From Flavisolibacter longurius (GTDB lineage: Bacteria; Bacteroidota; Bacteroidia; Chitinophagales; Chitinophagaceae): a DNA stretch of 64,000 nt. The DNA lies in assembly GCA_014163555.1 (NCBI GenBank), contig JACJGO010000006.1, positions 124,001 through 188,000 on the forward strand, in the 5' to 3' direction. Each line of letters opens with the position of its first letter. The first letter of the stretch is position 1. The translations under genes and the position numbers were made by a program. The notes beneath the pieces are model-generated. The model searched no databases, had not been told where the DNA came from, and was given only the letters and a program-made list of their open reading frames with translations. This document shows, one piece after another, positions 41,704 through 57,100 of this stretch.

Positions 41704-41927
41704 AACCTGTCAAAACTGGATATAAAAATGTAAACAGAACTTCTATAATGCTATGAAAAAATATACAAGCGTCTCATTGTTGTCCCTACATGTATAAAAC
41801 AGGTAACAAGTGTAAAAGTTGATATGAAGATCGCAAAGCGAAAGAAAACGAAACCCCACTCAAAATGAATAGAAGTGAGTGTGTAAAATGTTCTAATATC
41901 TAAATATCCCGATACCAAACTCTCCCT

Positions 41928-42689
41928 TCATACAATCGTCACTTCTATCCCCATTCCCTGCAGCGTTTCCACCATATGCTCGGAGATGTTGCTGTCGGTG
42001 ATTACCTGCTCAATGTCTTCCAGTCCGCAGATACGGCCAAAACCCCGCTTGCCAAATTTGCTCGAGTCGGCCAGTACCACCGTCTTTTGTGCCGCCCTGA
42101 TCATGGCTTTGTTCAACTGTGCTTCCATCATATTGGTGGTGGTCAGGCCAAATTCGGCGTCTATGCCATCCACGCCTAAAAACAATTTGCTGCAGGAAAA
42201 ATCATCCAGCATTTTTTCGGCATAAAGGCCTGTTACCGAAGAAGAGCTTTTGCGGATCGGCCCCGCCAGCTGAATCACCTCGATCTGTGGGTGCTGAACC
42301 AGCTCCAGTGCCACATTCAGGGCTGCGGTGATTACTGTTAAATTGCCCTTGGGCTGAATGGTTTTGGCCAGCGAAAGCACTGTGGTACCGGAAGCAATCA
42401 GGATGCAGTCATTCGGTTCGATCAGCTTTGCTGCCGCTTCGCCAATGCCGGATTTTTCCCGGGACTGTATCATCACCTTTTCATTCACGTGACGGTCCAC
42501 CGTATAAGGATTGTTCAGCGTGCCTCCGCCGTGGGTGCGATAGAGGAGCGAACGGTCTTCGAGCATTTTCAGGTCCTTGCGGATGGTTACAGATGAAACA
42601 TCCAGTTCCTTACAAAGGTCCACTACGTTTACACTGCCTTCTTTTTTCAGCCGGGCCAGAATATGCTGATGGCGTTGGGTTTGATTCAT
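41928..42689 (-). CDS. glpR: DeoR/GlpR-family transcriptional regulator
   Basis: 253 residues. N-terminal winged helix (residues 5-58: RHQHILARLKKEGSVNVVDL, SSVTIRKDLKMLEDRSLLYRTHGG), then a DeoR C-terminal sugar-phosphate-sensing domain (ILIASGTTVLSLAKTI, LAGPIRKSSSSVTG, FLGVDGIDAEFGLTTTNMMEA, ADSSKFGKRGF). It lies divergent to glpD, and glpK and glpF follow in the same region, so glycerol-3-phosphate is the likely inducer and it is likely a repressor. The symbol rests on context. Confidence 0.85.
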   Translation of the reverse strand: MNQTQRHQHILARLKKEGSVNVVDLCKELDVSSVTIRKDLKMLEDRSLLYRTHGGGTLNNPYTVDRHVNEKVMIQSREKSGIGEAAAKLIEPNDCILIASGTTVLSLAKTIQPKGNLTVITAALNVALELVQHPQIEVIQLAGPIRKSSSSVTGLYAEKMLDDFSCSKLFLGVDGIDAEFGLTTTNMMEAQLNKAMIRAAQKTVVLADSSKFGKRGFGRICGLEDIEQVITDSNISEHMVETLQGMGIEVTIV

Positions 42690-42756
42690 TCAAGCGCCAA
42701 ATTAACCCCTTGCCGTGCAGAAACCAAACTTTTACATTGAGGCCGTGTTTTTCGGT

Positions 42757-42868
42757 CGGTTTCTTTTTGTTGAAAAAAATGCTGTTTCGGTTTCGAATAT
42801 TGGAAAATAGTTTTATTATTGCTTTCGATTTATTCCTTTTCCATTTAAAAAGAAACAAAAAGAAACCG
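42757..42868. promoter_or_regulatory. Candidate GlpR operator/promoter region between glpR and glpD
   Basis: A perfect 15-base inverted repeat: CGGTTTCTTTTTGTT (42757-42771) and AACAAAAAGAAACCG (42854-42868). Between them lies GTTTCGGTTTCGAA (42784-42797) and CTTTCGATTT, further TTTCG-type direct repeats. DeoR-family operators are often spaced repeats of this sort. The reverse strand just upstream of glpK (54733-54752) carries a similar TTCGGCTTTTCGAA. The assignment is inference. Confidence 0.5.
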
Positions 42869-42876
42869 TTTGCCGC

Positions 42877-44469
42877 ATGAAAGAATTGCTTTCTCACCCG
42901 AGCACCGACAGGGGCCAGCAGCTAAAAAGGATCGCTGATCCTGCCATGCTGTGGGATGTGCTGGTGATAGGCGGCGGTGCTACTGGCCTAGGTGTTGCCC
43001 TGGATGCTGTAGCCCGTGGTTACAAAACACTGCTGGTAGACGGGGCTGATTTTGCCAAAGGAACATCCAGCCGCAGTACCAAGTTGGTGCACGGTGGCGT
43101 ACGCTACCTGGCGCAGGGCGATGTACGGTTGGTTCGGGAAGCTTCGGTAGAAAGAGGGCGCCTCTGTCGCAATGCGCCGCACCTGGTCAAAAACCAAACC
43201 TTTATTATTCCCATCTACAACCAGTGGGATAAACTGAAATACACGGTTGGCTTAAAGTTGTACGACTGGATTTCCGGTAGCCTCACCTTGGGATCTTCCG
43301 TTTTTATTTCCCGCAAAAAAACAATGGAAGCGCTGCCCGGCGTAAGACCCGAAGGTCTGCTGGGTGGTGTGCAATACCACGACGGGCAGTTCGACGATTC
43401 GCGGCTGGCCATCAATCTGGTGCAAAGTATAATCGAAGGCGGTGGTTGTGCAGTCAATTATATCCGGGTTACAGGTCTTCTGAAAACAGGAGAAGGCAGG
43501 ATTGAAGGCGCCATTCTTCGCGACGAAGAAACCGGTGCTGTATGTGGCGTAAAGGCAAAGGCCGTAGTGAACGCCACCGGCGTTTTTGTAGATGATATCC
43601 TGCAGATGGACAACGCGGCAGCACCCAAAAGCATTTGCGTCAGCCAGGGCGTACACGTGGTGCTGGATAAAAAATTCTTTCCGTCGGCACATGCACTGAT
43701 GATTCCGGAAACCAGTGATGGCCGGGTGTTGTTTGCCGTTCCCTGGCACGACAAAGTAGTTGTAGGCACCACCGACACGCCGGTGGAAGAAGCCTCTCTT
43801 GAGCCCCAGGCTCTCGAAAAAGAGATCAATTTTATCCTCGAAACTGCAGCCGCGTATTTAACGGCGAAGCCTACCCGCAACGATGTGCTGAGTGTTTTTG
43901 CCGGTCTGCGTCCGCTGGCAGCACCCAAGCAGGGCGAGCAAAAAACAAAAGAAATTTCCCGTAGCCATAAAATCATTGTTTCTGCATCCGGCCTTTTTAC
44001 CATCCTAGGTGGCAAATGGACCACCTTCCGGAAAATGGGCGAGGACATGATCAACTGCATCGAAGAAAAGCTGCAATGGAACCACCGCAAGCCGGGTACG
44101 GCGCAATTGGCCATTCATGGCTATGCCGAAAACGTAAACTGGAACGATCCGTTTTATTTCTATGGAAGTGATGCGCAACTGCTGAAGCAAAGCATGAATG
44201 GCAGTGCCGGCACCTGGATCAGCGAAAGCCTGAAAATTCATAAAATGCAGGTGAAATGGGCCGTAAAGCATGAAATGGCCCGCACGGTGGAAGATGTGTT
44301 GTCGCGAAGAACCCGTGCCCTCTTGTTGGATGCAAGGGAAAGCATCCGCATTTGTCCCGAAGTGGCCCGCCTCATGGCGGAAGCCCTGGGAAAAGATGAA
44401 CGCTGGATAGAAGCCGAAGTAGACGCGTTTACCCGGCTGGCCCAGCAGTATATTCTGGAAAAGAATTAA
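42877..44469 (+). CDS. glpD: Glycerol-3-phosphate dehydrogenase, FAD-dependent
   Basis: 530 residues, full length for GlpD/GlpA. FAD motif VLVIGGGATGLGVALDAVAR (residues ~29-48), then KGTSSRSTKLVHGGVRYLAQGD, GVQYHDGQFDDSRL, VVNATGVFVDD, HVVLDKKFFP, FAVPWHDKVVVGTTDTPV, RPLAAPKQ and GGKWTTFRKMGED. The C-terminal domain (DAO_C) ends VARLMAEALGKDERWIEAEV. It oxidises glycerol-3-phosphate to dihydroxyacetone phosphate at the inner face of the membrane and passes electrons to quinone. It is the first gene after the operator region, so regulation by GlpR is likely. It is the sink for the pathway encoded downstream. Confidence 0.95.
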   Translation: MKELLSHPSTDRGQQLKRIADPAMLWDVLVIGGGATGLGVALDAVARGYKTLLVDGADFAKGTSSRSTKLVHGGVRYLAQGDVRLVREASVERGRLCRNAPHLVKNQTFIIPIYNQWDKLKYTVGLKLYDWISGSLTLGSSVFISRKKTMEALPGVRPEGLLGGVQYHDGQFDDSRLAINLVQSIIEGGGCAVNYIRVTGLLKTGEGRIEGAILRDEETGAVCGVKAKAVVNATGVFVDDILQMDNAAAPKSICVSQGVHVVLDKKFFPSAHALMIPETSDGRVLFAVPWHDKVVVGTTDTPVEEASLEPQALEKEINFILETAAAYLTAKPTRNDVLSVFAGLRPLAAPKQGEQKTKEISRSHKIIVSASGLFTILGGKWTTFRKMGEDMINCIEEKLQWNHRKPGTAQLAIHGYAENVNWNDPFYFYGSDAQLLKQSMNGSAGTWISESLKIHKMQVKWAVKHEMARTVEDVLSRRTRALLLDARESIRICPEVARLMAEALGKDERWIEAEVDAFTRLAQQYILEKN

Positions 44470-44913
44470 GCCGATTGGCAACCTTGCTATATGCGTGTGA
44501 AAATTTTACAACCTGCGGTTCATAAAGAACATCTGCAACAGGTTCGTCCTGTTTCGCGGAAGCTGTGTACACAGTTCTTTAGCAGTAATGCCGGTGCAAT
44601 ATCTACGTATACTGCGTTTTCGCGTCTCCGTTGCATAGCAATGTTTTCCAATTTTTCACCTGGTGAACAACACCCATTCCGTATTTCGAACGATTATGGC
44701 AGCCCCCGAAAGAATGTGTTGACTGCAGGGCAGGTTTTCCAAGATTACGTTTTGGTTAACAAGCTGATAGGGTGCCGTGTGCAGGAGAATGCCAATTTAT
44801 ATTTGGCCCGTTGCGGCCGGCAGGATCGGAAGAGTACCTGTGAGTTTTTCACCTGTAATCCTGATCCCCAAAAAACGTCTTTCACACCATTCTTAAAATA
44901 CAACAATTAGCGT
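44470..44913. other. Gap of 444 bases between glpD and susC
   Basis: One frame (44491-44910) stays open across it, but its sequence (many Cys, Arg, Phe, Asn, no domain, no signal) does not look coding. No terminator or strong repeat was seen. It likely holds a promoter for the SusC operon. Confidence 0.45.
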
Positions 44914-47900
44914 ATGAGAAGCTTTGCGAATGCACCGGAAAGAATATTGAAAGTCAAGATCTGGCTTTTCATTATCCTTTTGATGGTGATGGCCATCACC
45001 AGTATGGCCCAGCAAAAATCCATTACCGGCGTTGTGCAAAATGCCGAGGACAACCAACCTATTCCGCAGGCTACTGTTTCTGTAAAAGGAATCCGTAGCG
45101 TGGTTCTGACCGACAACGCTGGCCGTTTTACCATTCAGGCGGCACCGAACCAAACCCTGGTGGTGACGGCCGTTGGATTTCAGCCGATGGAAAGAGCTGT
45201 AGGACAAGAAACGGCCCTGACTTTCCGGCTAACCAACTCCAATGCGCAAATGCAGGATGTGGTGGTAACGGCTCTGGGTATTCGTCGGGAGAAAAAAGCC
45301 CTGGCGTATTCTACTACGACCATCCAGGGAGATCAGCTTACCGATGCCGTTTCTGCTAACTGGACCGATGCCCTCTCGGGCAAGGTTGCGGGTTTGAACC
45401 TTGTGCGGTCGAACAGCGGCCCAGCCGGTTCCAACAAAATTATTTTACGGGGTGAGAACAACCTTACCGGTGACAACGAAGCCCTCATTGTTGTGGATGG
45501 CGTGGTGATCAACCAGGGAAGCGGGCGCCGGAGCGCTATCGGCGGCGAGGCGGTGTACGGTACCGGCAGCGATAACATGCCGGCTGACTATGGCAGCAGT
45601 GTAAATGATATCAATCCCGACGACATTGAGAATGTGGAAATATTGAAAGGCCCCGGTGCCGCAGCTCTTTATGGCCAACGCGGTGCCAACGGTGCCATTA
45701 TCATTACCACCAAATCCGGCAGTTCTCGGCGCAAAGGATGGGGTGTAACCTTCAACTCCAATGCATCGATGGAAAGGATCAACCGCTGGCCCGACCTGCA
45801 GTACGAATACGGCCAGGGTACGGATGGTGCCTTGCATTATTCTTTTGGCGCCGGTCCCGATGGTGCCAGCACCAGTGCCACCAGTTCGGCCTACGGCCCT
45901 CGCTTTAACGGGCAAATGTTTTACCAGTACGACCCGGCAACGGGACTTCGGGGCACCGAAAGAACCTTATGGCGCCCTTATCCCAACCAAACCCGTGAAT
46001 ACTTTGAAACCGGCCGTACGCTTACCAACAGCATCAGCCTCGATGGAGGAAGCGAAAGAACCGCTGCCCGTTTTTCCTACACAAACGTGAAGAACAACTG
46101 GATCATTCCCAACACCGGTTATGACCGCAATACGGTTGCCCTTTCGGTAAACTCCAAAGTGAACGACAGGCTGCAGATCAGCTCCAAGGTGAATTATACC
46201 AATAGGAGCAGCGATAACCTTCCCGGTGCTGGTTACGGCAACCAATCCATTATGTACTGGTATATTTTCTGGCAGCCCAGTGCTGATCTGAACTGGTTAA
46301 AGAATTACTGGGTACCCGGGCAGGAAGGCCGCAAGATCTTTTATCCTTTCAGCTCCTTTCCGGAAAACCCTTACGCAGTTGCCAATGAGTTTATCAACCG
46401 TAGTAACCGTCACGGCATGACGGGCAACGTACAGGCTACTTATAATTTCAACAAAGACCTGAGCCTGATGGTACGCACAGCACTGGATCTTTCTTACGAA
46501 CAACGGGCGCAGGAGCGTCCGTACGATGCCGGTTCGAAATTCCAGAAAGGTAGCTACCGTACACAAAGCATTTTCTCGCAAGAGGTGAATACCGATTTTC
46601 TTTTGCGCTATATAAAGAAGGTGAACACCGATTTTGATTTTAGTGTAAGCCTTGGCGGTAGTACGCTCAACAACCGGTACAACCGTGACGAAGTACGGGC
46701 CGACTCGCTGGTCAATCCCGGCTTTTATGCCATGAGCAATGCCTTGGGTACCCTGGAGACCATTCCCTGGAAAAGCCGGTACCGCATCAACAGCTTTTAC
46801 GGACTGATCACCACGGCCTTTAAAGAATTTCTCTTCCTTGACCTGACCGCCCGTCAGGACTGGAACAGCGTACTGGCCACACCGGTGCGTACGGAAAATG
46901 CTGGTTTCTTTTATCCTTCTGCCAACGTCAGCTTTATACTGTCGGAAGTGGTAAAGATGCCCTCCGCCATCTCTTTTGCCAAGCTGCGTTTTTCGGCTTC
47001 CAGTGTAGGTAGCGGTGGCACCATTCCTTACCTCACAGCGTATAACTATGCTACGGCCGGAAGCTTTTTCAGTGGTGGGCTGCAAAACCCAACTACATTG
47101 GCCAATCCTGACCTCAAGCCCCTGCGCACCATTACCTACGAAGCGGGTATGAACCTGCGTATGTTCAAAGGCCGTATGGAGTTTGACCTGGCTGTGTATA
47201 ACGGCAATACAAAAGACCAGATTCTGAACCGGATCATTGACCGGGCATCGGGCTATACCCGTGCTGTGATCAATGCCGGCCGGGTGAGCAACCAAGGTAT
47301 CGAGATCTCCCTGAACGGCACGCCGGTGAAAAAGTCCGCTGGTGGATTTAACTGGACCACCAGCCTGGTGTTTTCTGCCAACCGCAACCGGGTAGAAGAA
47401 CTCGCCGACAGTTCCGTGGTGCTGCAAACCGGTCCGGTTGGCGGCGGCCAGATCGTAGCCAAAGTAGGCGGCAGCATGGGCGACTTATATGGCCGCGGCT
47501 ACGTACGGGCCCCTGACGGGCAGATTGTGTACGACGAGGCTACCGGCTTTGCCAAGATTTCATCCGACGTGGTTTACCTGGGTAACACCATTCCCAAGGG
47601 AAAGGTGGGCTTTACCAATACATTTTCTTACAAAGGTTTTCGCCTGAACCTCCTGTTTGATGCGCAATACGGCGGTGTGGCCCACTCCCTGATGCACTAC
47701 AAACTGGCGGAGCAGGGCAAGCTGACCAAAACGCTCCCTGGTCGTTACAACGGCATTATCGGCAACGGCGTGGTGCAGGATGCCAGCGGCAAATACGTGC
47801 CCAATACCACCATTGCAATGGACATTGATGAATACTACCGTTCGCACTGGGGCATCGACAATGCCGAAGGCAGCACTTTCCGCACCGACTTTATAAAATT

Positions 47901-48129
47901 CAGGGAAGCAAGACTGGATTATACCATCAGCGCAAACCTGACCAAAAAGCTCGGGCTGCAGCGGGCCACCCTTGGTGTCTATGGCCGCGACCTGGCCATC
48001 TGGTCGCCCTGGCCAATGTTCGATCCGGAGTTTGGCACCCTGGCCGGTACCGATATCGTTCGCGGTTTTGAAGTGGGCCAGTTCCCCTCTACCCGTACTC
48101 TTGGCGTTAACCTGGTTGTTGCATTCTAA
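44914..48129 (+). CDS. SusC/RagA-family TonB-linked outer-membrane transporter
   Basis: 1071 residues. Hydrophobic export signal to about residue 32 (TSMAQ), then the CarboxypepD_reg-like domain (SITGVVQNAEDNQPIPQATV), the SusC motif DVVVTALGIRREKKALAYS, and a TonB plug (ALSGKVAGLNLV, LRGENNLTGDNEALIVVDGV, INPDDIENVEILKGPGAAALYGQRGANGAI). The long barrel ends GVNLVVAF. It is the channel half of a SusCD 'pedal bin' importer that moves oligomers across the outer membrane with TonB energy. Cargo is not encoded in the sequence; the downstream genes point to glycerophosphate-bearing material. SusD follows after 11 bases. Confidence 0.95.
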   Translation: MRSFANAPERILKVKIWLFIILLMVMAITSMAQQKSITGVVQNAEDNQPIPQATVSVKGIRSVVLTDNAGRFTIQAAPNQTLVVTAVGFQPMERAVGQETALTFRLTNSNAQMQDVVVTALGIRREKKALAYSTTTIQGDQLTDAVSANWTDALSGKVAGLNLVRSNSGPAGSNKIILRGENNLTGDNEALIVVDGVVINQGSGRRSAIGGEAVYGTGSDNMPADYGSSVNDINPDDIENVEILKGPGAAALYGQRGANGAIIITTKSGSSRRKGWGVTFNSNASMERINRWPDLQYEYGQGTDGALHYSFGAGPDGASTSATSSAYGPRFNGQMFYQYDPATGLRGTERTLWRPYPNQTREYFETGRTLTNSISLDGGSERTAARFSYTNVKNNWIIPNTGYDRNTVALSVNSKVNDRLQISSKVNYTNRSSDNLPGAGYGNQSIMYWYIFWQPSADLNWLKNYWVPGQEGRKIFYPFSSFPENPYAVANEFINRSNRHGMTGNVQATYNFNKDLSLMVRTALDLSYEQRAQERPYDAGSKFQKGSYRTQSIFSQEVNTDFLLRYIKKVNTDFDFSVSLGGSTLNNRYNRDEVRADSLVNPGFYAMSNALGTLETIPWKSRYRINSFYGLITTAFKEFLFLDLTARQDWNSVLATPVRTENAGFFYPSANVSFILSEVVKMPSAISFAKLRFSASSVGSGGTIPYLTAYNYATAGSFFSGGLQNPTTLANPDLKPLRTITYEAGMNLRMFKGRMEFDLAVYNGNTKDQILNRIIDRASGYTRAVINAGRVSNQGIEISLNGTPVKKSAGGFNWTTSLVFSANRNRVEELADSSVVLQTGPVGGGQIVAKVGGSMGDLYGRGYVRAPDGQIVYDEATGFAKISSDVVYLGNTIPKGKVGFTNTFSYKGFRLNLLFDAQYGGVAHSLMHYKLAEQGKLTKTLPGRYNGIIGNGVVQDASGKYVPNTTIAMDIDEYYRSHWGIDNAEGSTFRTDFIKFREARLDYTISANLTKKLGLQRATLGVYGRDLAIWSPWPMFDPEFGTLAGTDIVRGFEVGQFPSTRTLGVNLVVAF

Positions 48130-48140
48130 TCCCATAAAAC

Positions 48141-49673
48141 ATGAAAAAGATTTTCTGGATAAAAACACTCTTCACAATAACGCTGGTGGGCATGCTCGCA
48201 TCCTGCACCAAAGATTTTGAGGAGATCAATACCGATCCCAATAACATTCCTGGTGCCCTGCCCCAGCAGTTGCTGGCTCCGGCCCTGGTAAGTACATTGG
48301 GTTATAACATGCTTCGCAACCGCAACTTCAACAATGAGCTGATGCAGGTTTCGGTAAACATCAACGATGGCGAAGGACAGGTGTTTCGCTACGACTTCCG
48401 TTCGAACCTGGCCGACAACTTATACAACGGCTGGTACTCGGAGCTGACCAATTTTAAAGACATCTACAAAGTGGCTTCCGATACGGCATCGGGCAACTAC
48501 AACAAATCCTACATGGCCATTTCGCTGATCTGCCAGTCATGGATCTATTCCCTGCTGACAGATACCTATGGGGATGTTCCATTTGAACAATCCAATAAGG
48601 CCAAAAAAGAAGACGGCGAAATCTTTGAGCCGGCCTTTGACCGCCAGAAGGACATTTATCTCGGCATCTTCAGCATGCTGGAAGAAGCCAATACCCTGCT
48701 CGATGGCGGTCCGTCGATTGTGGCGGCCAGCGACCCGGTTTTTAGCGGTAACATCTCCCGCTGGCGCAGGTTTGGCAACTCGCTCTACCTGCGGCTCCTG
48801 CTGCGTATTTCGGGCAAGGCCGAAGTGGCAACCCAGGTAACGGCCAAGATCAAGGACATTGTGGAAACCAATGCAGCCAATTATCCGATCATGGCCAGCA
48901 ATGCCGATGCCGCTATACTCCGCTGGACCGGTACGGCGCCTTACATTTCGCCGCTGATGACTGTGCGGGAACAGGATTTCCGGGCGCCCAGCGTGGCCGC
49001 TTTCTTTATTGACAATCTGGTGAGCTGGGAAGACCCGCGGATCGATATCAGTCTTGGCGCCAATGGCATTAACCGTTGGGCCATTGCACCCTACCAGGGT
49101 GCCTATGTTGGTGTGCCGAGTGGCTATGCCCCCGGAACAGGCGTACAACGACTGTCTTATTTCTACTCAACGTCTTCTACTTCTACGCTGATGAACGAAC
49201 CGCTGGCCGGCATGATCATGAACTACGCCGAGGTGCAGTTTATCCTGGCGGAAGCCGCCCTGAAAGGCTGGATCAGCGGATCGCCGGAAACCTTTTACAA
49301 CCGGGGTGTGTTGAATAGCATCACGTTGTGGCTGCCCACCTGGAACAAGCCGATTGAAGACTTCCTGCGCAACCCCAATGGCAACGACAATCGCTTGTCG
49401 GCTGCAACTACGTTCGATGAAAAAATGGAATTCATTCACCTGCAGAAATATTATGCGCTTTTCCTGAACGACCTGCAGCAGTGGTTTGAATACCGCCGCA
49501 CCGGTCATCCAACTTTGCCCAAAGGCCCAGGACTGCGCAACGGTGGTGTTATGCCGGCGCGGATGAATTACCCGGTGTATGTACAGTCCACCAACCCTAC
49601 CAACTATAAAGAGGCTATTGCAGCGCAGGGTCCGGACCTGATCTCTACACCCGTATGGTGGCAAAAGCCCTGA
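48141..49673 (+). CDS. SusD/RagB-family surface lipoprotein (SusD-like_2 type)
   Basis: 510 residues; lipobox GMLAS|C with Cys22. After it DFEEINTDPNN, the usual opening of this SusD branch, then helical TPR-like segments (YMAISLICQSWIYSLLTDTYGDVPF), GNSLYLRLLLRISGKAE, and a late EVQFILAEAALKGWISG and QKYYALFLNDLQQWFEYRRTG. It caps the SusC barrel and binds the cargo on the outer surface. Same operon as susC, 11 bases downstream. Confidence 0.94.
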   Translation: MKKIFWIKTLFTITLVGMLASCTKDFEEINTDPNNIPGALPQQLLAPALVSTLGYNMLRNRNFNNELMQVSVNINDGEGQVFRYDFRSNLADNLYNGWYSELTNFKDIYKVASDTASGNYNKSYMAISLICQSWIYSLLTDTYGDVPFEQSNKAKKEDGEIFEPAFDRQKDIYLGIFSMLEEANTLLDGGPSIVAASDPVFSGNISRWRRFGNSLYLRLLLRISGKAEVATQVTAKIKDIVETNAANYPIMASNADAAILRWTGTAPYISPLMTVREQDFRAPSVAAFFIDNLVSWEDPRIDISLGANGINRWAIAPYQGAYVGVPSGYAPGTGVQRLSYFYSTSSTSTLMNEPLAGMIMNYAEVQFILAEAALKGWISGSPETFYNRGVLNSITLWLPTWNKPIEDFLRNPNGNDNRLSAATTFDEKMEFIHLQKYYALFLNDLQQWFEYRRTGHPTLPKGPGLRNGGVMPARMNYPVYVQSTNPTNYKEAIAAQGPDLISTPVWWQKP

Positions 49674-49714
49674 TGTTTGAAAACGAATCCAACAACAAAC
49701 TTTAAAAAGACGTC

Positions 49715-51235
49715 ATGAAAAATACGTTGCTATACAGTGTTTGTCTCCTGGCCCTGGTGCTGCTATGGGGTTGCCTGAAAGAAGATAGTACCTACCCAGG
49801 TGGCACGCCCAGTCCTTTCATTGCCGTAATGGATGTAAGGGCCATTCACGAAGGACAGGATGTTACCCTGACAAAAGAGAACATGTTTGGCGCCAACAAG
49901 ATCGCTGCAATGGTTACCTCCGACCACAGAGGCAACAATACGCCAGCCGGCTTGCTGGTTGTGCAGGACAACCGCCGCCTCGGGCAACTTCGCGGCATTG
50001 CCATCAACATTGGCTCGGCGGCAGCCGATTATCTTCCCGGCGATCTGGTAGAGATTGACGTGGAAGGCGGAATGCTGAAAAAAGTAAATGGCCTGCTGCA
50101 ACTAACGGGTATCACTACACAAAAAATAAAAAAGGTCAGCTCGGGCAATACTGTTACTCCGCTGTCTGTGAAAAGCAATGATGTATTGGCCAACCCGGAC
50201 CGTTTTGAAGGTGTGCTGATCTCCCTGACATCGGTTGGCTTTGATCCTTCGTACCCGGCCGGTTCTACCTATGCCGGCGACAAAACCATCAACGATGGTT
50301 TTGGTAATATGACCTTGCACACCGAGGCCGCCGCTTCGTGGTCGGGTAAGCTCCTGCCGTTTCTTTCCAATTTTAGTGGGATCGTATTCAGCGGTGCAGA
50401 TGGAGCGCCGCAATTGTGGCCCCGTGCTGAAAGCGATATTACCGTTCGTAGTGCCACAGCTCCCAAGATAGCACCGGTTGTCATCACAGGCTTTCTGACC
50501 GACCCCGCTGGTGGTGATGGCAATTATGAATACATCCAGTTGTTGGCCACCCGCAACATTAATTTTTCGGTGACACCCATGTCGGTGACAACCACCAACA
50601 ATGCAGGTGCCTCTACGCCAACCGGAGTTCCGGTAGAAGGCTGGGCCACCGGTGGCCTGCGTACCTATAAAATTGACATCACGGACGGTTCGGTACAGAA
50701 GGGACAATATTTTTATGTGGGGGCCAACAAAAAGATATGGGGCAGCAATTCAACCGAAATCAACCCGGCCTTTTGGGTAACCAAAATATATGGCGATAAC
50801 AACGGAGATGGCTTTGGAACCAAAACCAGCAACCTGCTGGCCAACAGCGGCAACGCTGGCGGCATTGCCGTATTTGACAAAACAGCCGTAGATGCCAGCA
50901 CCGTACCGGTGGATGTTATTTTTTACGGTGGAGCAGGAACACTTTTCAGCGCCGGCCCGCCGGCAAGAGGCTACCGCATTACCAATACTGATTATTACGA
51001 TGAGAAGCATCCGGTTAACCAAGAAGAGCAACCATTTTTTGCCATGGGTTCCAATACGACCCGGTTTACTTTTCCAACAGTAGTCAATAATGTTGGCGGT
51101 TATTTTGCCAAACTGGGCGGTACGTACAATATTGTTACCGGCCGCTGGACATCGGCCCGCCTGATGAACAACGTGTTGCTGAACAATGCGTCCACACTGG
51201 CGGAGATTGAAGGCGGAACTACTATCGAAGACTGA
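49715..51235 (+). CDS. DUF5689-domain surface lipoprotein
   Basis: 506 residues; lipobox LLWG|C with Cys20. The N-terminal part (residues ~35-250) is a DUF5689/OB-like domain (TPAGLLVVQDNRRLGQLRGI, DYLPGDLVEIDVEGG, LSVKSNDVLANPDRFEGVLI, GIVFSGADGAPQLWPRAESDI). The C-terminal ~250 residues form a lamin-tail-like region (EYIQLLATRNINFS, KGQYFYVGANKKIWG). Such proteins sit behind SusCD pairs as extra surface ligand-binding or nuclease-related lipoproteins. 41 bases after susD, same operon. Confidence 0.85.
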   Translation: MKNTLLYSVCLLALVLLWGCLKEDSTYPGGTPSPFIAVMDVRAIHEGQDVTLTKENMFGANKIAAMVTSDHRGNNTPAGLLVVQDNRRLGQLRGIAINIGSAAADYLPGDLVEIDVEGGMLKKVNGLLQLTGITTQKIKKVSSGNTVTPLSVKSNDVLANPDRFEGVLISLTSVGFDPSYPAGSTYAGDKTINDGFGNMTLHTEAAASWSGKLLPFLSNFSGIVFSGADGAPQLWPRAESDITVRSATAPKIAPVVITGFLTDPAGGDGNYEYIQLLATRNINFSVTPMSVTTTNNAGASTPTGVPVEGWATGGLRTYKIDITDGSVQKGQYFYVGANKKIWGSNSTEINPAFWVTKIYGDNNGDGFGTKTSNLLANSGNAGGIAVFDKTAVDASTVPVDVIFYGGAGTLFSAGPPARGYRITNTDYYDEKHPVNQEEQPFFAMGSNTTRFTFPTVVNNVGGYFAKLGGTYNIVTGRWTSARLMNNVLLNNASTLAEIEGGTTIED

Positions 51236-51293
51236 TAACGGCTATCTGCAAACGTGAGACTCCCAATTGGTTTTGCGTTTGCGGATACCAATA

Positions 51294-51333
51294 TCCCAAT
51301 TTCTTATTATCTCACTATCGCATTATCCCTCAC
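51294..51333. repeat. Octanucleotide-periodic tract
   Basis: Five octads in register: TCCCAATT, TCTTATTA, TCTCACTA, TCGCATTA, TCCCTCAC. It lies in the only notable gap inside the SusC-to-GDPD gene run, just before the phosphoesterase gene. Related in style to the 7-base tracts but with period 8. Confidence 0.65.
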
Positions 51334-51357
51334 CCATAAACGACATAGCAAGAATTT

Positions 51358-52794
51358 ATGGCAATGAACAGAAGACATTTCCTGGCGCAGATCGCCTGGC
51401 TCACCGGAGGACTTCTTTTTTCCCGTTGTACACCGGCCAAAGACCTGGCCCTTTCCGGTAAAGCTATTGGCGGTACGGTTACTGCCGGTAGCAAAGGCCT
51501 GAAAGACGTGGTGGTGAGCGACGGGTATTCGGTAGTGCTTACCGACAAGAGGGGCCGTTACGAACTGGCGCCGCATCCCGATGCCATCGCCCTTTTTGTA
51601 TCAACACCTGCCGGTTATGCCTTTCCGCAGGAAGGAGGCATTGCCCGGCATTACATCCTGATGCAAAATATAAGCAAGGATCAATCGAACAACTTTACCT
51701 TACAGCCCTTGCAGCGCTCCGATGACGAGCACAGTTTCATCATCTGGGCCGACCCGCAGGTAAAGAATGCAAAGGATGTGCAGAAGCTGATGAGCGAGAC
51801 CGTGCCCGATGTAAAAAAATGGGTGGCCGCACAACCGCAGGGTGCCCTGCTGCACGGTATTTCGGTGGGTGATATTGTATGGGATGAGCTGCAGCTTTTT
51901 GCGGATTACGACAAGGCCGTAGCACAGATGGGCATTCCGTTTTTTCAATGCCTGGGCAACCACGACATGGATTACCGCAAAGGCGGCGATGAAACCTCCG
52001 ATGATACATTTGCCCTGACCTATGGCCCTACTTATTATTCGTTCAACCGCGGACAGGTGCATTATGTTGTGCTTGATAACGTTCGTTATTTAGGAAAGGA
52101 AAGGGAATACGATGGCTACATCCAGCAACATCAACTGGACTGGCTGCAAAAAGATCTTTCTTTTGTACCGGCTGATAAACTGGTAGTGCTTTGTGTGCAC
52201 ATTCCGGTGCACCGCGGCACCAAGAACAACGAAGCCCTGTATGCCTTGCTGCAGGGAAGGAACGTACACATTATGTCGGGGCATACGCATTACAATGTGA
52301 ATGCCATTCGCGATAATATTTACGAACATAACCACGGCACCGTTTGCGGCGCCTGGTGGACGGGGCCTATCTGCGAAGACGGCACCCCCAGCGGTTACGG
52401 CATTTACACCGTAAAAGGAAAAGAATTGAGCTGGCAGTACAAAGCTACCGGCAAACCCGCGGATTACCAGATGACGATCTACGACAACGAAATTTCCGCT
52501 ACGGAAAAACAAGTGCTGGTGAACATCTGGAACCACGACCCCGCCTGGAAAACCGAATATTGGGTGGATGGCGTGAGCAGGGGCGCACTGGAACAAACCG
52601 AGGGCTTCGATCCGCTGGCGTATAAGAACATGCTGGGACCCGACCTGCCCAAGCCACGCGGTTTTGCCGAACCGAAAAAAACAAAACATTTATTCCGGGC
52701 GGTCGTACCCGCATCGGCCAAAGCGGTGAAGGTGGTGGCCACCGACCGGTTTGGCAAGACCTATACTGCCCAACATAGCATTGGCTCCGTTTAA
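51358..52794 (+). CDS. Calcineurin-like phosphoesterase with Metallophos_N and _C domains
   Basis: 478 residues; ATG 51364 is an alternative start. The N-terminus MNRRHFLAQIAWLTGGLLFSRC combines a twin-Arg-like start with a lipobox-like end, so export is likely. ~30-115 an N-terminal beta domain (GTVTAGSKGLKDVVVSDGYS). ~125-330 the metallophosphatase core: IIWADPQ, GDIVWDE, GNHDMDY, VCVHIPVH, MSGHTHYN, which are the metal ligands of the family. ~330-478 a C-terminal sandwich. It probably removes phosphate from a phosphomono- or diester in the periplasm. It would fit release of free glycerol from glycerol-3-phosphate, which is inference from the neighbours. Confidence 0.9.
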   Translation: MAMNRRHFLAQIAWLTGGLLFSRCTPAKDLALSGKAIGGTVTAGSKGLKDVVVSDGYSVVLTDKRGRYELAPHPDAIALFVSTPAGYAFPQEGGIARHYILMQNISKDQSNNFTLQPLQRSDDEHSFIIWADPQVKNAKDVQKLMSETVPDVKKWVAAQPQGALLHGISVGDIVWDELQLFADYDKAVAQMGIPFFQCLGNHDMDYRKGGDETSDDTFALTYGPTYYSFNRGQVHYVVLDNVRYLGKEREYDGYIQQHQLDWLQKDLSFVPADKLVVLCVHIPVHRGTKNNEALYALLQGRNVHIMSGHTHYNVNAIRDNIYEHNHGTVCGAWWTGPICEDGTPSGYGIYTVKGKELSWQYKATGKPADYQMTIYDNEISATEKQVLVNIWNHDPAWKTEYWVDGVSRGALEQTEGFDPLAYKNMLGPDLPKPRGFAEPKKTKHLFRAVVPASAKAVKVVATDRFGKTYTAQHSIGSV

Positions 52795-52806
52795 AATTCT
52801 GCCTGT

Positions 52807-53484
52807 ATGAAAAGACTCCTGTTTTTGTTTTCTGCTATTCTCGCTCTGCATGCAAACGGGCAAACACTCAAATGGGACAGCACGCACCGTCCCGGCAATT
52901 TTGCGCTGAAGGTGGACCTGTTCCGCAGTTACCCCAATTCGGCAAAAGACATCATCTTTTTGGGCAACAGCATCACGGCCGGCGTGGACTGGGTGGAACT
53001 GTTGGGAAACCCGGTTGTGCGTAACCGTGGTATTTCCGGTGACATTACGTTTGGCGTGCTGGAACGCCTGCATGAAGTAACGGAAGGCGCACCGGCAAAG
53101 GTCTTTATTCTTATCGGCATCAACGATATTTCCCGCAACATTCCAGACAGCGTCATCATCGGCAATTATGCAAAGATGATCCAGCGGATAAAAAAGGAAT
53201 CGCCCAAAACAAAGATCTATTTTCAAACCCTGATGCCGGTGAACGACAGCTTTACGCAGTTTAAAAATCATTACAACAAAGACGAGCATATTCTTTTTGT
53301 GAACGAAAGCCTGAAGGCACTGGCAGTGGCAGAAAAGGTCACCCTCATTGATCTATACCCGCATTTTTTAGACAGCGAAAAAAAGATGGACAAGCGCTAC
53401 ACCATCGACGGTCTTCACCTCAATGCCGAAGGTTACAAGGTGTGGGCCGATGTATTGAAAAAGGGTGGCTATCTCGAAAAATAA
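52807..53484 (+). CDS. Secreted SGNH/GDSL hydrolase
   Basis: 225 residues; signal peptide to about residue 19 (LHANGQ). All four blocks are seen: Ser55 in FLGNSITAG, Gly75 in NRGISGD, Asn106 in IGINDI, and Asp201/His204 in DGLHLNAEGY. The family removes acyl or acetyl groups from lipids or sugars. It is 12 bases after the phosphoesterase gene and 3 bases before the phosphodiesterase gene, so clearly in one operon. A deacylating step before phosphodiester cleavage fits the set. Confidence 0.92.
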   Translation: MKRLLFLFSAILALHANGQTLKWDSTHRPGNFALKVDLFRSYPNSAKDIIFLGNSITAGVDWVELLGNPVVRNRGISGDITFGVLERLHEVTEGAPAKVFILIGINDISRNIPDSVIIGNYAKMIQRIKKESPKTKIYFQTLMPVNDSFTQFKNHYNKDEHILFVNESLKALAVAEKVTLIDLYPHFLDSEKKMDKRYTIDGLHLNAEGYKVWADVLKKGGYLEK

Positions 53485-53487
53485 TCC

Positions 53488-54390
53488 ATGAAAGGAAAAA
53501 CGATTCTGGTGATAATGTGTGCGGCACTGCTTTCCTGCAGCGTACAAAAAAGGGCAGCAAACTTTCCCAAGGGTTTTGACAAGCAAGGCCACCGCGGCAG
53601 CCGGGGGCTGATGCCGGAGAACACCATCCCGGCGATGCGCAAGGCCATTGACCTGGGCGCCACTACGCTGGAAATGGACCTCGGAATTTCGGGCGACAAA
53701 CAGGTAGTGGTTTCCCATGACCCGCATTTTCACGAGAACATTACCACCACGCCAGAAGGCAAAACGCTGACAAAAGCCGAAGCCGGCAAACGCCTGCTGT
53801 ACGCCATGCCTTACGACAGCATTAAAAAATACGATGTCGGGCTGAAGCCGCACCCCGATTTTCCACGGCAACAAAAAATGGCTGTTCACAAACCCATGCT
53901 GGCCGAGCTGCTGACTGATGTTGAGGCCTATGCAATGGAAAAAGGCCGTACGCTTTTTTATAATATCGAGATCAAATCAAAGCCCGAAGGCGATGGCAAA
54001 AAGCATCCGCCGGTAGAAGAATTTGTTGACCTGGCCATGACCGTTGTCAAAAACAAAGGCATTAGTGCAAGAACAACGATCCAGTCTTTCGACCCAAGGG
54101 CCCTGCAGGTAGTGCGCCGCAAATATCCCGGTGTGGTGACTTCACTCCTGATCGAAGGAGCCGACAAGCGTTCGCTGGATGAACAGCTCCAGCAATTAGG
54201 GTATACGCCACCGGTATACAGTCCGCACTTTTCGCTGGTGACTGCAGCCCTGGTAGAAGCCTGTCACCAAAAAGGCATGCGGGTAATCCCGTGGACAGCG
54301 AATGCCATCGAGGAAATGAAGCGTTTGAAAGACCTGAAAGTGGATGGCATCATCACCGATTACCCTGATCTTTTTGAACAACTGAAGTAG
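53488..54390 (+). CDS. glpQ: Glycerophosphodiester phosphodiesterase lipoprotein
   Basis: 300 residues; lipobox LLS|C with Cys17. GDPD marks: His35-Arg36 in GHRGSRGLMPENT, Glu62 and Asp64 in TLEMDLGIS, His77 in VVSHDPHFHENIT, and NIEIKSKPEGDG with the metal Glu; also RTTIQSFDPRAL and the closing VDGIITDYPDLF. It cuts glycerophosphodiesters to glycerol-3-phosphate and an alcohol, outside the inner membrane. It is the last gene of the tightly packed SusC-to-GDPD run; a heptad tract begins at its stop codon. The glpQ symbol is by analogy. Confidence 0.92.
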   Translation: MKGKTILVIMCAALLSCSVQKRAANFPKGFDKQGHRGSRGLMPENTIPAMRKAIDLGATTLEMDLGISGDKQVVVSHDPHFHENITTTPEGKTLTKAEAGKRLLYAMPYDSIKKYDVGLKPHPDFPRQQKMAVHKPMLAELLTDVEAYAMEKGRTLFYNIEIKSKPEGDGKKHPPVEEFVDLAMTVVKNKGISARTTIQSFDPRALQVVRRKYPGVVTSLLIEGADKRSLDEQLQQLGYTPPVYSPHFSLVTAALVEACHQKGMRVIPWTANAIEEMKRLKDLKVDGIITDYPDLFEQLK

Positions 54391-54500
54391 TGAGTGGTGA
54401 GTGGTCAGTGGTGAGTAGTGGGACGAGCGAGTTGTAAGTGGCAAGTAGCGAGTAGTAGTTGAACAGTTTGTAGTGAATAGTTAGATGCTTGTAGTGAGAA
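54389..54500. repeat. Long heptanucleotide-periodic tract, GGTGAGT family
   Basis: About 16 heptads in one register starting at the GDPD stop: AGTGAGT, GGTGAGT, GGTCAGT, GGTGAGT, AGTGGGA, CGAGCGA and so on, decaying to the right (GTTTGTA, GTGAATA). The inverted counterpart is at 54682-54716. Confidence 0.8.
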
Positions 54501-54780
54501 ACGCTATTGATTTACTATTTGGGTTGTGAGGCTGGCAGTCGTGTAAGTGCTGGCGCTGACCGCGAAGCGGTCGAACAACAATTGCAGTGGGTGAAACCCG
54601 TGGATAAGGCATGGTGGAGAGGGCCCGACCCCGAAGTGGTCGAACAGGTAAGTGGATAGGTGGAAATAAATAATTTCTTTCTCGCTGACCACTGACCTTT
54701 CACCACTCACCACATTCGAATCTGTTCTATATTTAAGGCTTCGAAAAGCCGAACCATATTGATCACATAATCTTGCTTGC
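54391..54780. other. 390-base repeat-filled gap between the GDPD gene and glpK
   Basis: The outer parts are inverted heptad tracts (54389-54500 and 54682-54716). Inside are two copies of a hairpin unit, GACCGCGAAGCGGTCGAACA at 54558-54577 and GACCCCGAAGTGGTCGAACA at 54627-54646, both with a GAA loop. A smaller GGGT-GAA-ACCC hairpin lies at 54589-54599. Close to glpK is GGCTTCGAAAAGCC (54737-54750), a possible GlpR site. No gene is seen. Confidence 0.7.
54682..54716. repeat. Heptanucleotide-periodic tract, inverted copy of the GGTGAGT family
   Basis: Five heptads TCGCTGA, CCACTGA, CCTTTCA, CCACTCA, CCACATT. The reverse complement gives TGAGTGG and TCAGTGG, matching the tract behind the GDPD gene. 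65 bases upstream of glpK. Confidence 0.75.
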
Positions 54781-56274
54781 ATGTCCAAATTCATTTTAGC
54801 ATTCGACCAGGGGACCACCAGCTCACGGGCCATCATCTTCAACAAAAAAGGCGACATTGTTTCCGTAGCACAAAAAGAGTTCACACAGATCTTTCCGCAA
54901 CCCGGTTGGGTGGAGCATGACCCGAACGAGATTTGGTCAACACAACTGGGCGTGGCCACCGAAGCCATTCTCAAAGCCGGCCTCACGGTATACGACATTG
55001 CCGGCATCGGCATCACCAACCAGCGGGAGACCGCCGTAGTGTGGGATCGCAAAACATCGCAACCCATCTACAACGCCATTGTATGGCAGGACCGCCGCAC
55101 GGCCGCTTATTGCGACGAGCTCAAAAAGAATGGATCAGCTGCTGTAATCAAGGAGCGTAGCGGCCTGGTAACCGATGCCTATTTCTCCGCCACCAAGGTC
55201 AAATGGATGCTGGACAATGTGCCAGGCGCCCGGGCGAAAGCCGAAAACAGTGAGCTTTGTTTTGGCACCATCGACAGTTGGCTCCTTTGGAAACTCACGA
55301 ATGGCAAAGTGCATGCAACAGACGTGACCAATGCTTGCCGAACGATGCTGTTTAACATTCATACCATGCAGTGGGACGATGACCTGCTGAAGATCTTTGG
55401 CATTCCGCACAGCATGCTGCCCGAGGTTTGTTCCAGCAGCGAAATTTACGGCCATACGCAACACCTGTTGACGGCTGCCGATATTCCCATTTGCGGTATT
55501 GCCGGCGACCAGCAGGCGGCGCTTTTCGGGCAGATGTGTATTCATCCCGGCATGGTAAAAAATACGTACGGAACGGGTTGTTTTATGCTGATGAATACGG
55601 GCAATAAACCGGTTCCTTCGAGTAATAATTTATTGACCACGGTTGCCTGGAAGATAGGCAACGATGTGCAGTATGCCCTGGAAGGCAGCGTGTTCATTGC
55701 CGGTGCCGTAGTGCAATGGCTAAGGGATGGATTAAAGCTGATTCAAACCTCCGGTGATGTGGAAGCATTGAGCCTGCGGGCAGAAGATAACGGTGGCGTA
55801 TACATGGTGCCGGCCTTTACCGGACTTGGAGCCCCCTACTGGAACCAGCATGCCAGGGGACTGATTGTAGGCCTGACAAGAGGCAGCACCGATGCGCAAC
55901 TGGCAAGAGCGGCCATTGAAAGCATCGCTTACCAAACCATGGATGTGCTAAAGGCCATGGAAGCCGATGCAGGCCTGGCCATTAAAGAAGTAAGGGTGGA
56001 TGGCGGCGCTACCGTGAACAATTACCTCATGCAGTTCCAGGCCGACATCCTGAACACAACAGTCATACGGCCGCAGATCACTGAAACAACAGCCCTCGGT
56101 GCGGCTTACCTGGCCGGTCTGGCCGTAGGCTTCTGGAGCGATATAAAAGAAGTGGAAGCCTATTGGCAAAAAGGCCGCGCCTTTGAAGCGGCCATGACCG
56201 ATGGGGTAAGAACAACGCACCAAAAATTCTGGAAAAAAGCCATCCGTGCTGCACAGGCATGGGCGGAAGAATAG
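54781..56274 (+). CDS. glpK: Glycerol kinase
   Basis: 497 residues, the usual length. FGGY family marks: [17 protein letters not shown] at the N-terminus, [95 protein letters not shown] and [19 protein letters not shown]. It phosphorylates glycerol to glycerol-3-phosphate with ATP in the cytoplasm. Followed by the GlpF channel gene; with GlpD and GlpR upstream it completes glycerol use. Confidence 0.97.
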
Positions 56275-56288
56275 ATGATGGTTGGTAT

Positions 56289-56330
56289 ATGACGGATGAC
56301 AGTATTGGAAATATTCCAGTCATCCGTCAT
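56289..56330. repeat. 12-base perfect inverted repeat between glpK and glpF
   Basis: ATGACGGATGAC (56289-56300) and GTCATCCGTCAT (56319-56330), with a smaller GGAA-ATA-TTCC hairpin in the loop. It could be an mRNA stem that tunes glpF relative to glpK, or a repeat-element end. Confidence 0.7.
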
Positions 56331-56389
56331 CTCGCATCTGTCATCTCACGAAAACTACAAACCAAAAACTACCAACCACAAACTCTATC
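56320..56389. repeat. Ten heptads in register ending at the glpF start codon
   Basis: TCATCCG, TCATCTC, GCATCTG, TCATCTC, ACGAAAA, CTACAAA, CCAAAAA, CTACCAA, CCACAAA, CTCTATC and then ATG at 56390. The consensus changes half way from TCATCTN to CNACAAA while the phase is kept. The A/C-rich second half forms the glpF leader and lacks a Shine-Dalgarno sequence. Confidence 0.75.
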
Positions 56390-57100
56390 ATGAACATTTT
56401 CATCGGGGAAATTATCGGCACGTTTCTTTTGATCCTACTGGGCAACGGCGTTGTTGCGAATGTTATCCTCAACAAAACAAAAGGCAATGGCGGCGGGTGG
56501 ATCGTTATCACCTTTGGCTGGGCCATGGCCGTATTTGTAGGCGTGTTTGTGGCCTCTAAGGCCAGCGGTGCCCACCTCAATCCAGCCGTTACCCTGGCGC
56601 TGGCTGTGGCGGGAAAAATAACCTGGGGCGTGGTGCCGGAATACATTGGCGGGCAAATGATCGGTGCCATGCTGGGATCACTGGGTGTATGGGCCGCCTA
56701 CCACCGGCACTTTTTGGCAACCGACGATACCGGTATTAAACTGGCAGTGTTTTCCACGGGTCCGGCTATTCGTAGTTCGTTTCCCAACCTGCTCACGGAG
56801 ATCATCGGAACCTTTGTGCTCATTTTTGCGGTGCTTTATATCATTGCGCCGTCCAGCAGCTTGGGTGCGCTGGATGCCCTGCCCGTAGCCTTGTTAGTGC
56901 TGGCCATCGGCCTGAGTTTGGGTGGGCCTACCGGTTATGCCATCAACCCTGCAAGAGACCTGGGGCCGCGCATCATGCATGCCCTTCTTCCCATTGGTAA
57001 AAAAGGCAGCAGCGACTGGGCCTATGTCTGGATACCCATCGTAGGTCCTATGATCGGCGCTGTAGCTGCAGCATTGCTCTTTATGGCCTTGCCGAAGTAG
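56390..57100 (+). CDS. glpF: Glycerol facilitator, MIP/aquaporin family
   Basis: 236 residues, six membrane helices and the two NPA half-helices: GAHLNPAVTLAL (residue ~60) and GYAINPARDLGPR (~180). The Asp after the second NPAR (NPARDLGPR) is the mark of glyceroporins as opposed to water channels. It lets glycerol pass the inner membrane for trapping by GlpK. It is 115 bases after glpK, separated by an inverted repeat and heptad tract. Confidence 0.95.
   Translation: MNIFIGEIIGTFLLILLGNGVVANVILNKTKGNGGGWIVITFGWAMAVFVGVFVASKASGAHLNPAVTLALAVAGKITWGVVPEYIGGQMIGAMLGSLGVWAAYHRHFLATDDTGIKLAVFSTGPAIRSSFPNLLTEIIGTFVLIFAVLYIIAPSSSLGALDALPVALLVLAIGLSLGGPTGYAINPARDLGPRIMHALLPIGKKGSSDWAYVWIPIVGPMIGAVAAALLFMALPK

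Follow-up and report, generated by a model that had tools for sequence, protein, structure and literature searches.

What is a SusCD pair, an outer-membrane importer of a type known mainly for glycans, doing in the middle of a run of glycerol genes? We have addressed this question in the window, a stretch of 64,000 nucleotides from a Flavisolibacter genome (GCA_014163555.1; contig JACJGO010000006.1, positions 124,001 to 188,000), a 5.66 Mb draft of 58 contigs in which the window belongs to the contig that we number C54. Ten genes of the window form the locus, and a Pfam search found no carbohydrate-active enzyme among them. The only published exception to the glycan rule that we have found is that of the phosphate-regulated PusCD loci. 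Gene content, conserved linkage, the pattern of operator-like sites and the relic of a glpT gene lead us to conclude that the locus probably serves the utilisation of glycerophosphodiesters, and that it is tied to the glycerol (GlpR-type) regulon and not to the sensing of sugar or phosphate. If this is true, glycerophosphodiesters would be a carbon source with an outer-membrane door of their own in soil and plant-associated Bacteroidota.

Gene content of the locus

A first-pass annotation, made from the sequence alone, had named ten genes here and placed nine of them on one strand. The ten open frames lie at the expected coordinates, and Pfam and NCBIfam model searches confirmed their families:

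41928..42689, minus strand: DeoR/GlpR-type regulator (PF00455, 172 bits; PF08220, 58 bits)
42877..44469, plus strand: glpD, glycerol-3-phosphate dehydrogenase (PF01266, PF16901; NF008899 at 282 bits, under its cut-off of 360)
44914..48129, plus strand: SusC, TonB-dependent outer membrane transporter (TIGR04056, 540 bits, cut-off 368)
48141..49673, plus strand: SusD-like_2 protein, predicted surface lipoprotein (PF12771, 345 bits; lipobox followed by CTKDFEE)
49715..51235, plus strand: DUF5689 protein, predicted lipoprotein (PF18942, 75 bits, cut-off 28.6)
51358..52794, plus strand: calcineurin-like phosphoesterase with a twin-arginine-like signal (MetallophosN/Metallophos/MetallophosC, PF16371/PF00149/PF16370)
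52807..53484, plus strand: SGNH/GDSL hydrolase (PF13472, 106 bits)
53488..54390, plus strand: GDPD protein, predicted lipoprotein (PF03009, 131.6 bits, cut-off 23.6; lipobox followed by CSVQKRA)
54781..56274, plus strand: glpK, glycerol kinase (TIGR01311, 743 bits, cut-off 590)
56390..57100, plus strand: glpF-type MIP channel (PF00230, 143 bits; TIGR00861, 176 bits, cut-off 171)

The regulator alone is on the minus strand. susC and susD (TIGR04056, PF12771) are adjacent with 11 bases between them, the arrangement by which the SusCD pair of polysaccharide utilisation loci is recognised. From SusC to GDPD the intergenic gaps are 11, 41, 122, 12 and 3 bases, so that the spacing of 3-41 bases first described for most of this run fits four of the five, and the outer gaps are larger: 444 bases between glpD and susC, 390 between GDPD and glpK, and 115 between glpK and glpF.

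Among solved structures the GDPD protein matches PDB 3ch0 (255 bits), and the closest solved relatives of the SGNH hydrolase are 7pzg (193 bits) and 6njc (192 bits), with lysophospholipase L1 and sialate O-acetylesterase as the names of such matches. The nearest fold to the phosphoesterase is that of GpdQ, the glycerophosphodiesterase of Enterobacter aerogenes and thus a diesterase, Rv0805 and other proteins being a few Z units away. Its motifs GD-x2-W-D, GNHD, H and GHTH are invariant in 34 relatives; the first motif, however, reads D-P-Q, with D and Q invariant. The RRxF/L signature lies within the first 30 residues in 75 of 80 relatives. The first-pass annotation had this enzyme free glycerol and the SGNH hydrolase remove acyl groups, as a phospholipid deacylase would; both roles are putative.

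The DUF5689 protein, whose Cys20 is invariant in 29 sequences, raises the question of whether the polymer imported is a nucleic acid, or some other phosphodiester without glycerol, the GDPD activity then being incidental. Its structural model shows OB folds and a domain resembling a lamin tail, natural transformation in Riemerella requires a DUF5689 protein (excerpts of PMC8459023), and the PLD-like proteins of related loci score against the nuclease NucT, far below its cut-off. However, OB folds bind many ligands, the structural matches of the model are weak, the best-ranked one having a query TM-score of 0.20, and a locus for nucleic acid would have little use for glp genes and a GDPD; we regard this explanation as very improbable. 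That the DUF5689 proteins share a phosphodiester-handling role with the Riemerella one is, by analogy, only a thought.

Conservation of the linkage

A search for the same synteny across Bacteroidota found that the linkage recurs in three families: Chitinophagaceae, Sphingobacteriaceae and Hymenobacteraceae. Around the best 80 of 219 relatives of the phosphoesterase, SusCD is present in 61 stretches, any glp gene in 58, GDPD in 66 and SGNH in 55; SusCD and a glp gene occur together in 42, and SusCD, GDPD and a glp gene in 35. With SusD as the anchor, 59 of 147 genomes of the family gave a match at E <= 1e-40, and 12 of the 40 best-scoring places carry a glp gene, two of them (L044 and L048) overlapping in one cluster. 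On a tree of 97 SusD rows, 23 changes of the glp label are required, compared with 32.7 in shuffles, none of 500 of which was as low. The first-pass annotation had taken the ten genes for one coherent locus of glycerophosphodiester utilisation, and this view has gained ground: GDPD, SGNH, phosphoesterase and glp genes occur as a group, in F. ginsengisoli (L037) the genes from glpD to glpF follow one another on one strand with no gap above 108 bp, and GlpR-type operators stand before susC in 12 relatives, as described below.

Two other arrangements were seen. In Niastella and Longitalea (L081-L086, L088, L089) glpR, glpD, phosphoesterase, glpK, glpF and GDPD lie together with no SusCD in the stretch, as an importer-less form of the locus, and SGNH is also present, L083 excepted. 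In Pedobacter namyangjuensis (L139:3438-21226) two SusC-SusD-DUF5689 sets surround phosphoesterase, GDPD, glpT and SGNH.

Regulation

The regulator had been called GlpR-like from the start. Its place in the DeoR family stands, and an operator motif precedes glpD; its best NCBIfam model, however, is AgaR, at 236.9 bits and under the cut-off of 260, and no NCBIfam model of the DeoR family, the curated GlpR equivalog included, scores above its cut-off. The label therefore rests on context and on the operator. From 46 glpR-glpD regions, the window's own among them, we learned a 16-base motif with the consensus TGAAACAAAACGAAAC, which marks three operator-like sites in the window:

41839..41854, plus strand: GlpR-type operator-like site, 22.4 bits, the top site of the 64 kb
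42822..42837, minus strand: operator-like site before glpD, 15.3 bits (in the glpR-glpD region, which is training sequence)
42851..42866, plus strand: operator-like site before glpD, 17.5 bits (also training sequence)

The first of these lies outside the training region. The core of the site at 42851-42866 has three matches in the 64 kb against 0.54 expected, as many being found in none of 100 shuffles, and one of them, at 41840-41854 with 2 mismatches, falls in the top site. That site is located in the convergent region 3' of glpR, after a cytochrome-c peroxidase-like gene that ends at 41703, and stands before no gene start.

When the regions upstream of susC were scored with the motif at a cut of 14 bits, the 12 relatives with an operator were distributed as follows: all 3 loci with a divergent glpR, 4 of the 16 whose stretch lacks any glp gene (all four from Pedobacter) and 5 of the 43 in which susC stands behind another recognised gene. 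None of the 3 loci of a small mixed group had one, and neither did any of the controls, namely 28 susC genes without the phosphoesterase of the locus and 18 unrelated SusC genes; in shuffles the rate was 0-0.5%.

These operators bear on the explanation closest to the published literature, according to which phosphorus would be the goal and the glp genes would merely recycle glycerol. In Flavobacterium, the PusCD loci combine SusCD with phosphodiesterases or phosphomonoesterases in the place of carbohydrate-active enzymes, as the present locus does with its GDPD and its calcineurin-like phosphoesterase, and they are proposed to take up organophosphorus compounds, phosphodiesters among them, and cut them in the periplasm (excerpts of PMC8115612). 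Moreover, the wider core of SusC, SusD, DUF5689 and phosphoesterase is also found without glp genes. The PusCD loci differ from ours, however, in that they respond to phosphate depletion and have extracytoplasmic function (ECF) sigma or FecR regulators (excerpts of PMC8115612), whereas our locus has a DeoR/GlpR-type regulator, glpD, glpK and glpF, and, in relatives, glpT. The glp-linked loci show GlpR-type operators and not a sigma/FecR pair or phosphate (PHO) control, although no search for PHO boxes was made, and the ECF sigma and FecR pairs tested before susC all belong to three loci without glp genes (L033, L061, L062). The SusD proteins differ as well, that of the window being PF12771 and PusD1 and PusD2 being pf07980 and pf14322, yet PusD is polyphyletic over several Pfam types (excerpts of PMC8115612). 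We consider it improbable that the locus is a phosphate-scavenging one of this kind.

Points against the proposed reading

Several results weigh against a glycerophosphodiester locus under glycerol control, or limit its reach: (i) SusD proteins up to 70% identical occur in stretches without any glp gene (28 of the 40 anchored on SusD), and SusCD alone is for this reason no marker of function. SusCD homologues beside unrelated enzymes in most genomes had been put forward at the outset as a reason to abandon the idea, and the 28 stretches bear this out in part. (ii) Among the 70 of the 80 phosphoesterase stretches that are full-length (at least 19 kb), 20 have no glp gene, and in 12 glp genes are present but this SusCD is not; eight of these 12 are from Niastella or Longitalea, and another, L137, has a different SusD type. 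(iii) glpD finds a match in 117 of 296 genomes of the phylum, and of its 121 places besides that of the window we examined 40, weighted to the closest; only two (L151, L174) have this SusCD, in one (L178) the phosphoesterase stands without SusCD, and the SusC of five others is unrelated, at 23-28% identity. The union of SusCD and glp genes is thus a minority arrangement for glpD in the phylum, and the usual one for this phosphoesterase. (iv) The glp-linked SusD proteins are clustered on the tree and do not form a single clade, and the 23 changes of label speak against exclusivity; there has been exchange or re-use of SusCD modules. (v) In the window we found no operator upstream of susC, where the score is 8.8 bits, or of glpK, where it is -0.03 bits, and the run there would therefore depend on putative read-through from glpD. 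With intergenic gaps as long as 444 and 390 bases, a single transcript is unproven.

Another explanation is that a general locus of SusCD, DUF5689 and phosphoesterase has come to lie beside a glycerol operon by chance. SusC-type genes are common, with 53 TonB-receptor barrel matches in the genome, and 38 of the 40 sampled glpD stretches are without this SusCD. We have nevertheless set chance adjacency aside as exceedingly unlikely and largely refuted already, because glp genes accompany 58 of the 80 phosphoesterases and the linkage persists in three families in which SusD has diverged to 38-70% identity.

GlpT, intact in relatives and decayed in the window

The closest named relative at the locus is F. 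longurius (phosphoesterase 95% and SusD 92% identical; locus genes at 80-89% DNA identity, with 431 of the 762 bases of glpR comparable). In both Flavisolibacter relatives that cover the stretch, F. ginsengisoli and F. longurius, an intact glpT lies between glpD and susC. The gene in this position scores 729 (L037), 725 (L060) and 720 bits (L071) with TIGR00712, whose cut-off is 632.55; the F. longurius protein is at 720 bits. We found no intact GlpT in the genome of the window, its best TIGR00712 match being 37 bits. When the gap between glpD and susC was compared with the F. longurius gene by blastn, three collinear pieces were found:

44470..44913, plus strand: decayed glpT, made up of the following segments
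44470-44531: 62 bases, 87%, E 6.5e-17
44711-44829: 119 bases, 70%, E 2.2e-17
44870-44913: 44 bases, 91%, E 2.9e-12

By tblastn the relic scores 39.7-42.4 bits, against 22.7 for the best of 500 shuffles, and its DNA score of 69 compares with 45 or less in 100 shuffles. About 420 of the 1,338 bases of glpT are left. The relic retains an open frame of 139 codons (44491-44910) from the old start codon, with one weak NCBIfam GlpT match (E 8e-5).

Of the 147 genomes of the family, three have a GlpT above the cut-off, each at the glpD-susC position (L037, L044/L048, L060), and in the 296 genomes of the phylum there are two: G264, in the locus (L174), and G430, where glpK-glpD-GDPD-glpF-glpT form a run and the 20 kb that were read contain no SusCD. 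Among the 80 phosphoesterase stretches, 24 have GlpT, and SusCD is found in every one of these. The F. ginsengisoli locus with its intact GlpT was met twice (L037=L078), another Flavisolibacter contig (L077) begins inside the phosphoesterase, and in a genome of the same genus (G004) glpD-glpK-glpF form a run in which SusCD is lacking, and no GlpT passes the cut-off. In G356 (L192:6662-11263), GDPD and SGNH lie near a GlpT-like transporter of 439 bits (cut-off 632.55), and no SusCD was found.

The likeliest reading of these sequences is a recent loss of GlpT in the lineage of the window. It had been argued from the absence of GlpT that glycerol, and not its phosphate ester, crosses the inner membrane; this argument has to be reversed, since the absence is secondary. 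In relatives that have GlpT it is the phosphate ester that would cross, and with no intact GlpT and a relic in its place, uptake of glycerol only would therefore be a derived fallback. The window has caught the loss part-way, and with the intact locus of F. longurius it offers a clean comparison for the switch from glycerol 3-phosphate to glycerol uptake.

The proposed pathway and its substrate

The E. coli glp regulon consists of glpTQ, glpFK, glpD and glpR, that is, a periplasmic GDPD, GlpT, GlpF/GlpK and GlpD under a DeoR-family repressor. Our locus resembles it in having GDPD, GlpF/GlpK, GlpD and a DeoR-family regulator, and differs from it in that everything is in one locus with its own SusCD importer, SGNH hydrolase and phosphoesterase, GlpT being decayed in the window. 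From these components we infer the substrate, the order of the steps and their localisation. SusCD, together with the DUF5689 surface lipoprotein, would carry a compound that contains glycerophosphodiesters through the outer membrane. Ester groups would then be stripped in the periplasm by the SGNH enzyme, and the diesters would be cut to glycerol 3-phosphate by the GDPD lipoprotein, possibly aided by the GpdQ-like phosphoesterase. In the ancestral arrangement GlpT would hand this product to GlpD across the inner membrane. Since GlpT is a relic in the window, the phosphoesterase or some other phosphatase would first have to remove the phosphate from glycerol 3-phosphate there, and glycerol would then enter and pass through GlpF, GlpK and GlpD.

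Lipid headgroups and fragments of teichoic acid are candidate substrates. That glycoside hydrolases are absent, a point stressed in the first-pass annotation, is true of the ten genes of the window and does not extend to the related loci: GH36 (alpha-galactosidase) is present in 4 distinct loci of three families (L037=L078, L118, L127, L144) and NAGLU (alpha-N-acetylglucosaminidase) in 3, all from Rufibacter (L127, L142, L144). Both are on the strand of the run, GH36 adjoining GDPD at -1 to 52 bp, and the GH36 proteins resemble alpha-galactosidases of solved structure (386 bits for L037). Further additions to related runs are PLD-like genes in 10 stretches and Gfo/Idh genes in three.

The glycosidases bring in a narrower possibility, that the substrate is specifically an oligomeric, glycosylated poly(glycerol phosphate) teichoic acid, whose C2 substituents, an obstacle to an exo-enzyme of the GlpQ type, would be removed by the glycosidases and the esterase. 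The teichoicases GlpQ and PhoD of B. subtilis provide the likeness, in that our GDPD belongs to a family able to free glycerol 3-phosphate from the unsubstituted glycerophosphate polymer; GlpQ requires an unmodified C2 hydroxyl and is stopped by glycosyl or alanyl groups (excerpts of PMC7086022), so that a GDPD with alpha-glycosidases and an esterase at its side agrees with a decorated teichoic acid. SusCD importers, too, should suit oligomers. However, the ten genes of the window include no glycosidase, no GH36 relic was seen when one was searched for in the GDPD-glpK gap (best tblastn E 0.19), glycosidases are in a minority of the loci, and the same accessory set also fits other glycosylated glycerophosphates. 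We therefore hold this substrate to be possible but doubtful. It is rather unlikely that these are teichoic-acid utilisation loci in the full sense, in which a SusCD system wired to the glycerol regulon would import fragments of the glycerol-phosphate wall polymer of Gram-positive neighbours, alpha-glycosidases and the SGNH esterase would strip the side groups, and GDPD would feed GlpT or, where GlpT has decayed, supply glycerol for GlpF; with teichoic acid as the substrate, the locus would be a route for feeding on dead Gram-positive neighbours. In the titles and abstract openings of the open-licence papers searched we found no published SusCD locus that is linked with glp genes or with teichoic acid. 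The closest published kind found is that of the PusCD phosphate loci, and what is new here is the glycerol pathway, the type of regulator and the GlpT of the relatives.

Minor features of the gaps

Terminator-like sites are not enriched in the region (22, against 21.7 in shuffles), which is uninformative, and among those listed none is within the glpD-susC or GDPD-glpK gaps. The GDPD-glpK gap (54391-54780) is geneless and 73% identical to the same gap of F. longurius, so its length is not peculiar to the window; it contains GTGAGTGGT-like repeats.

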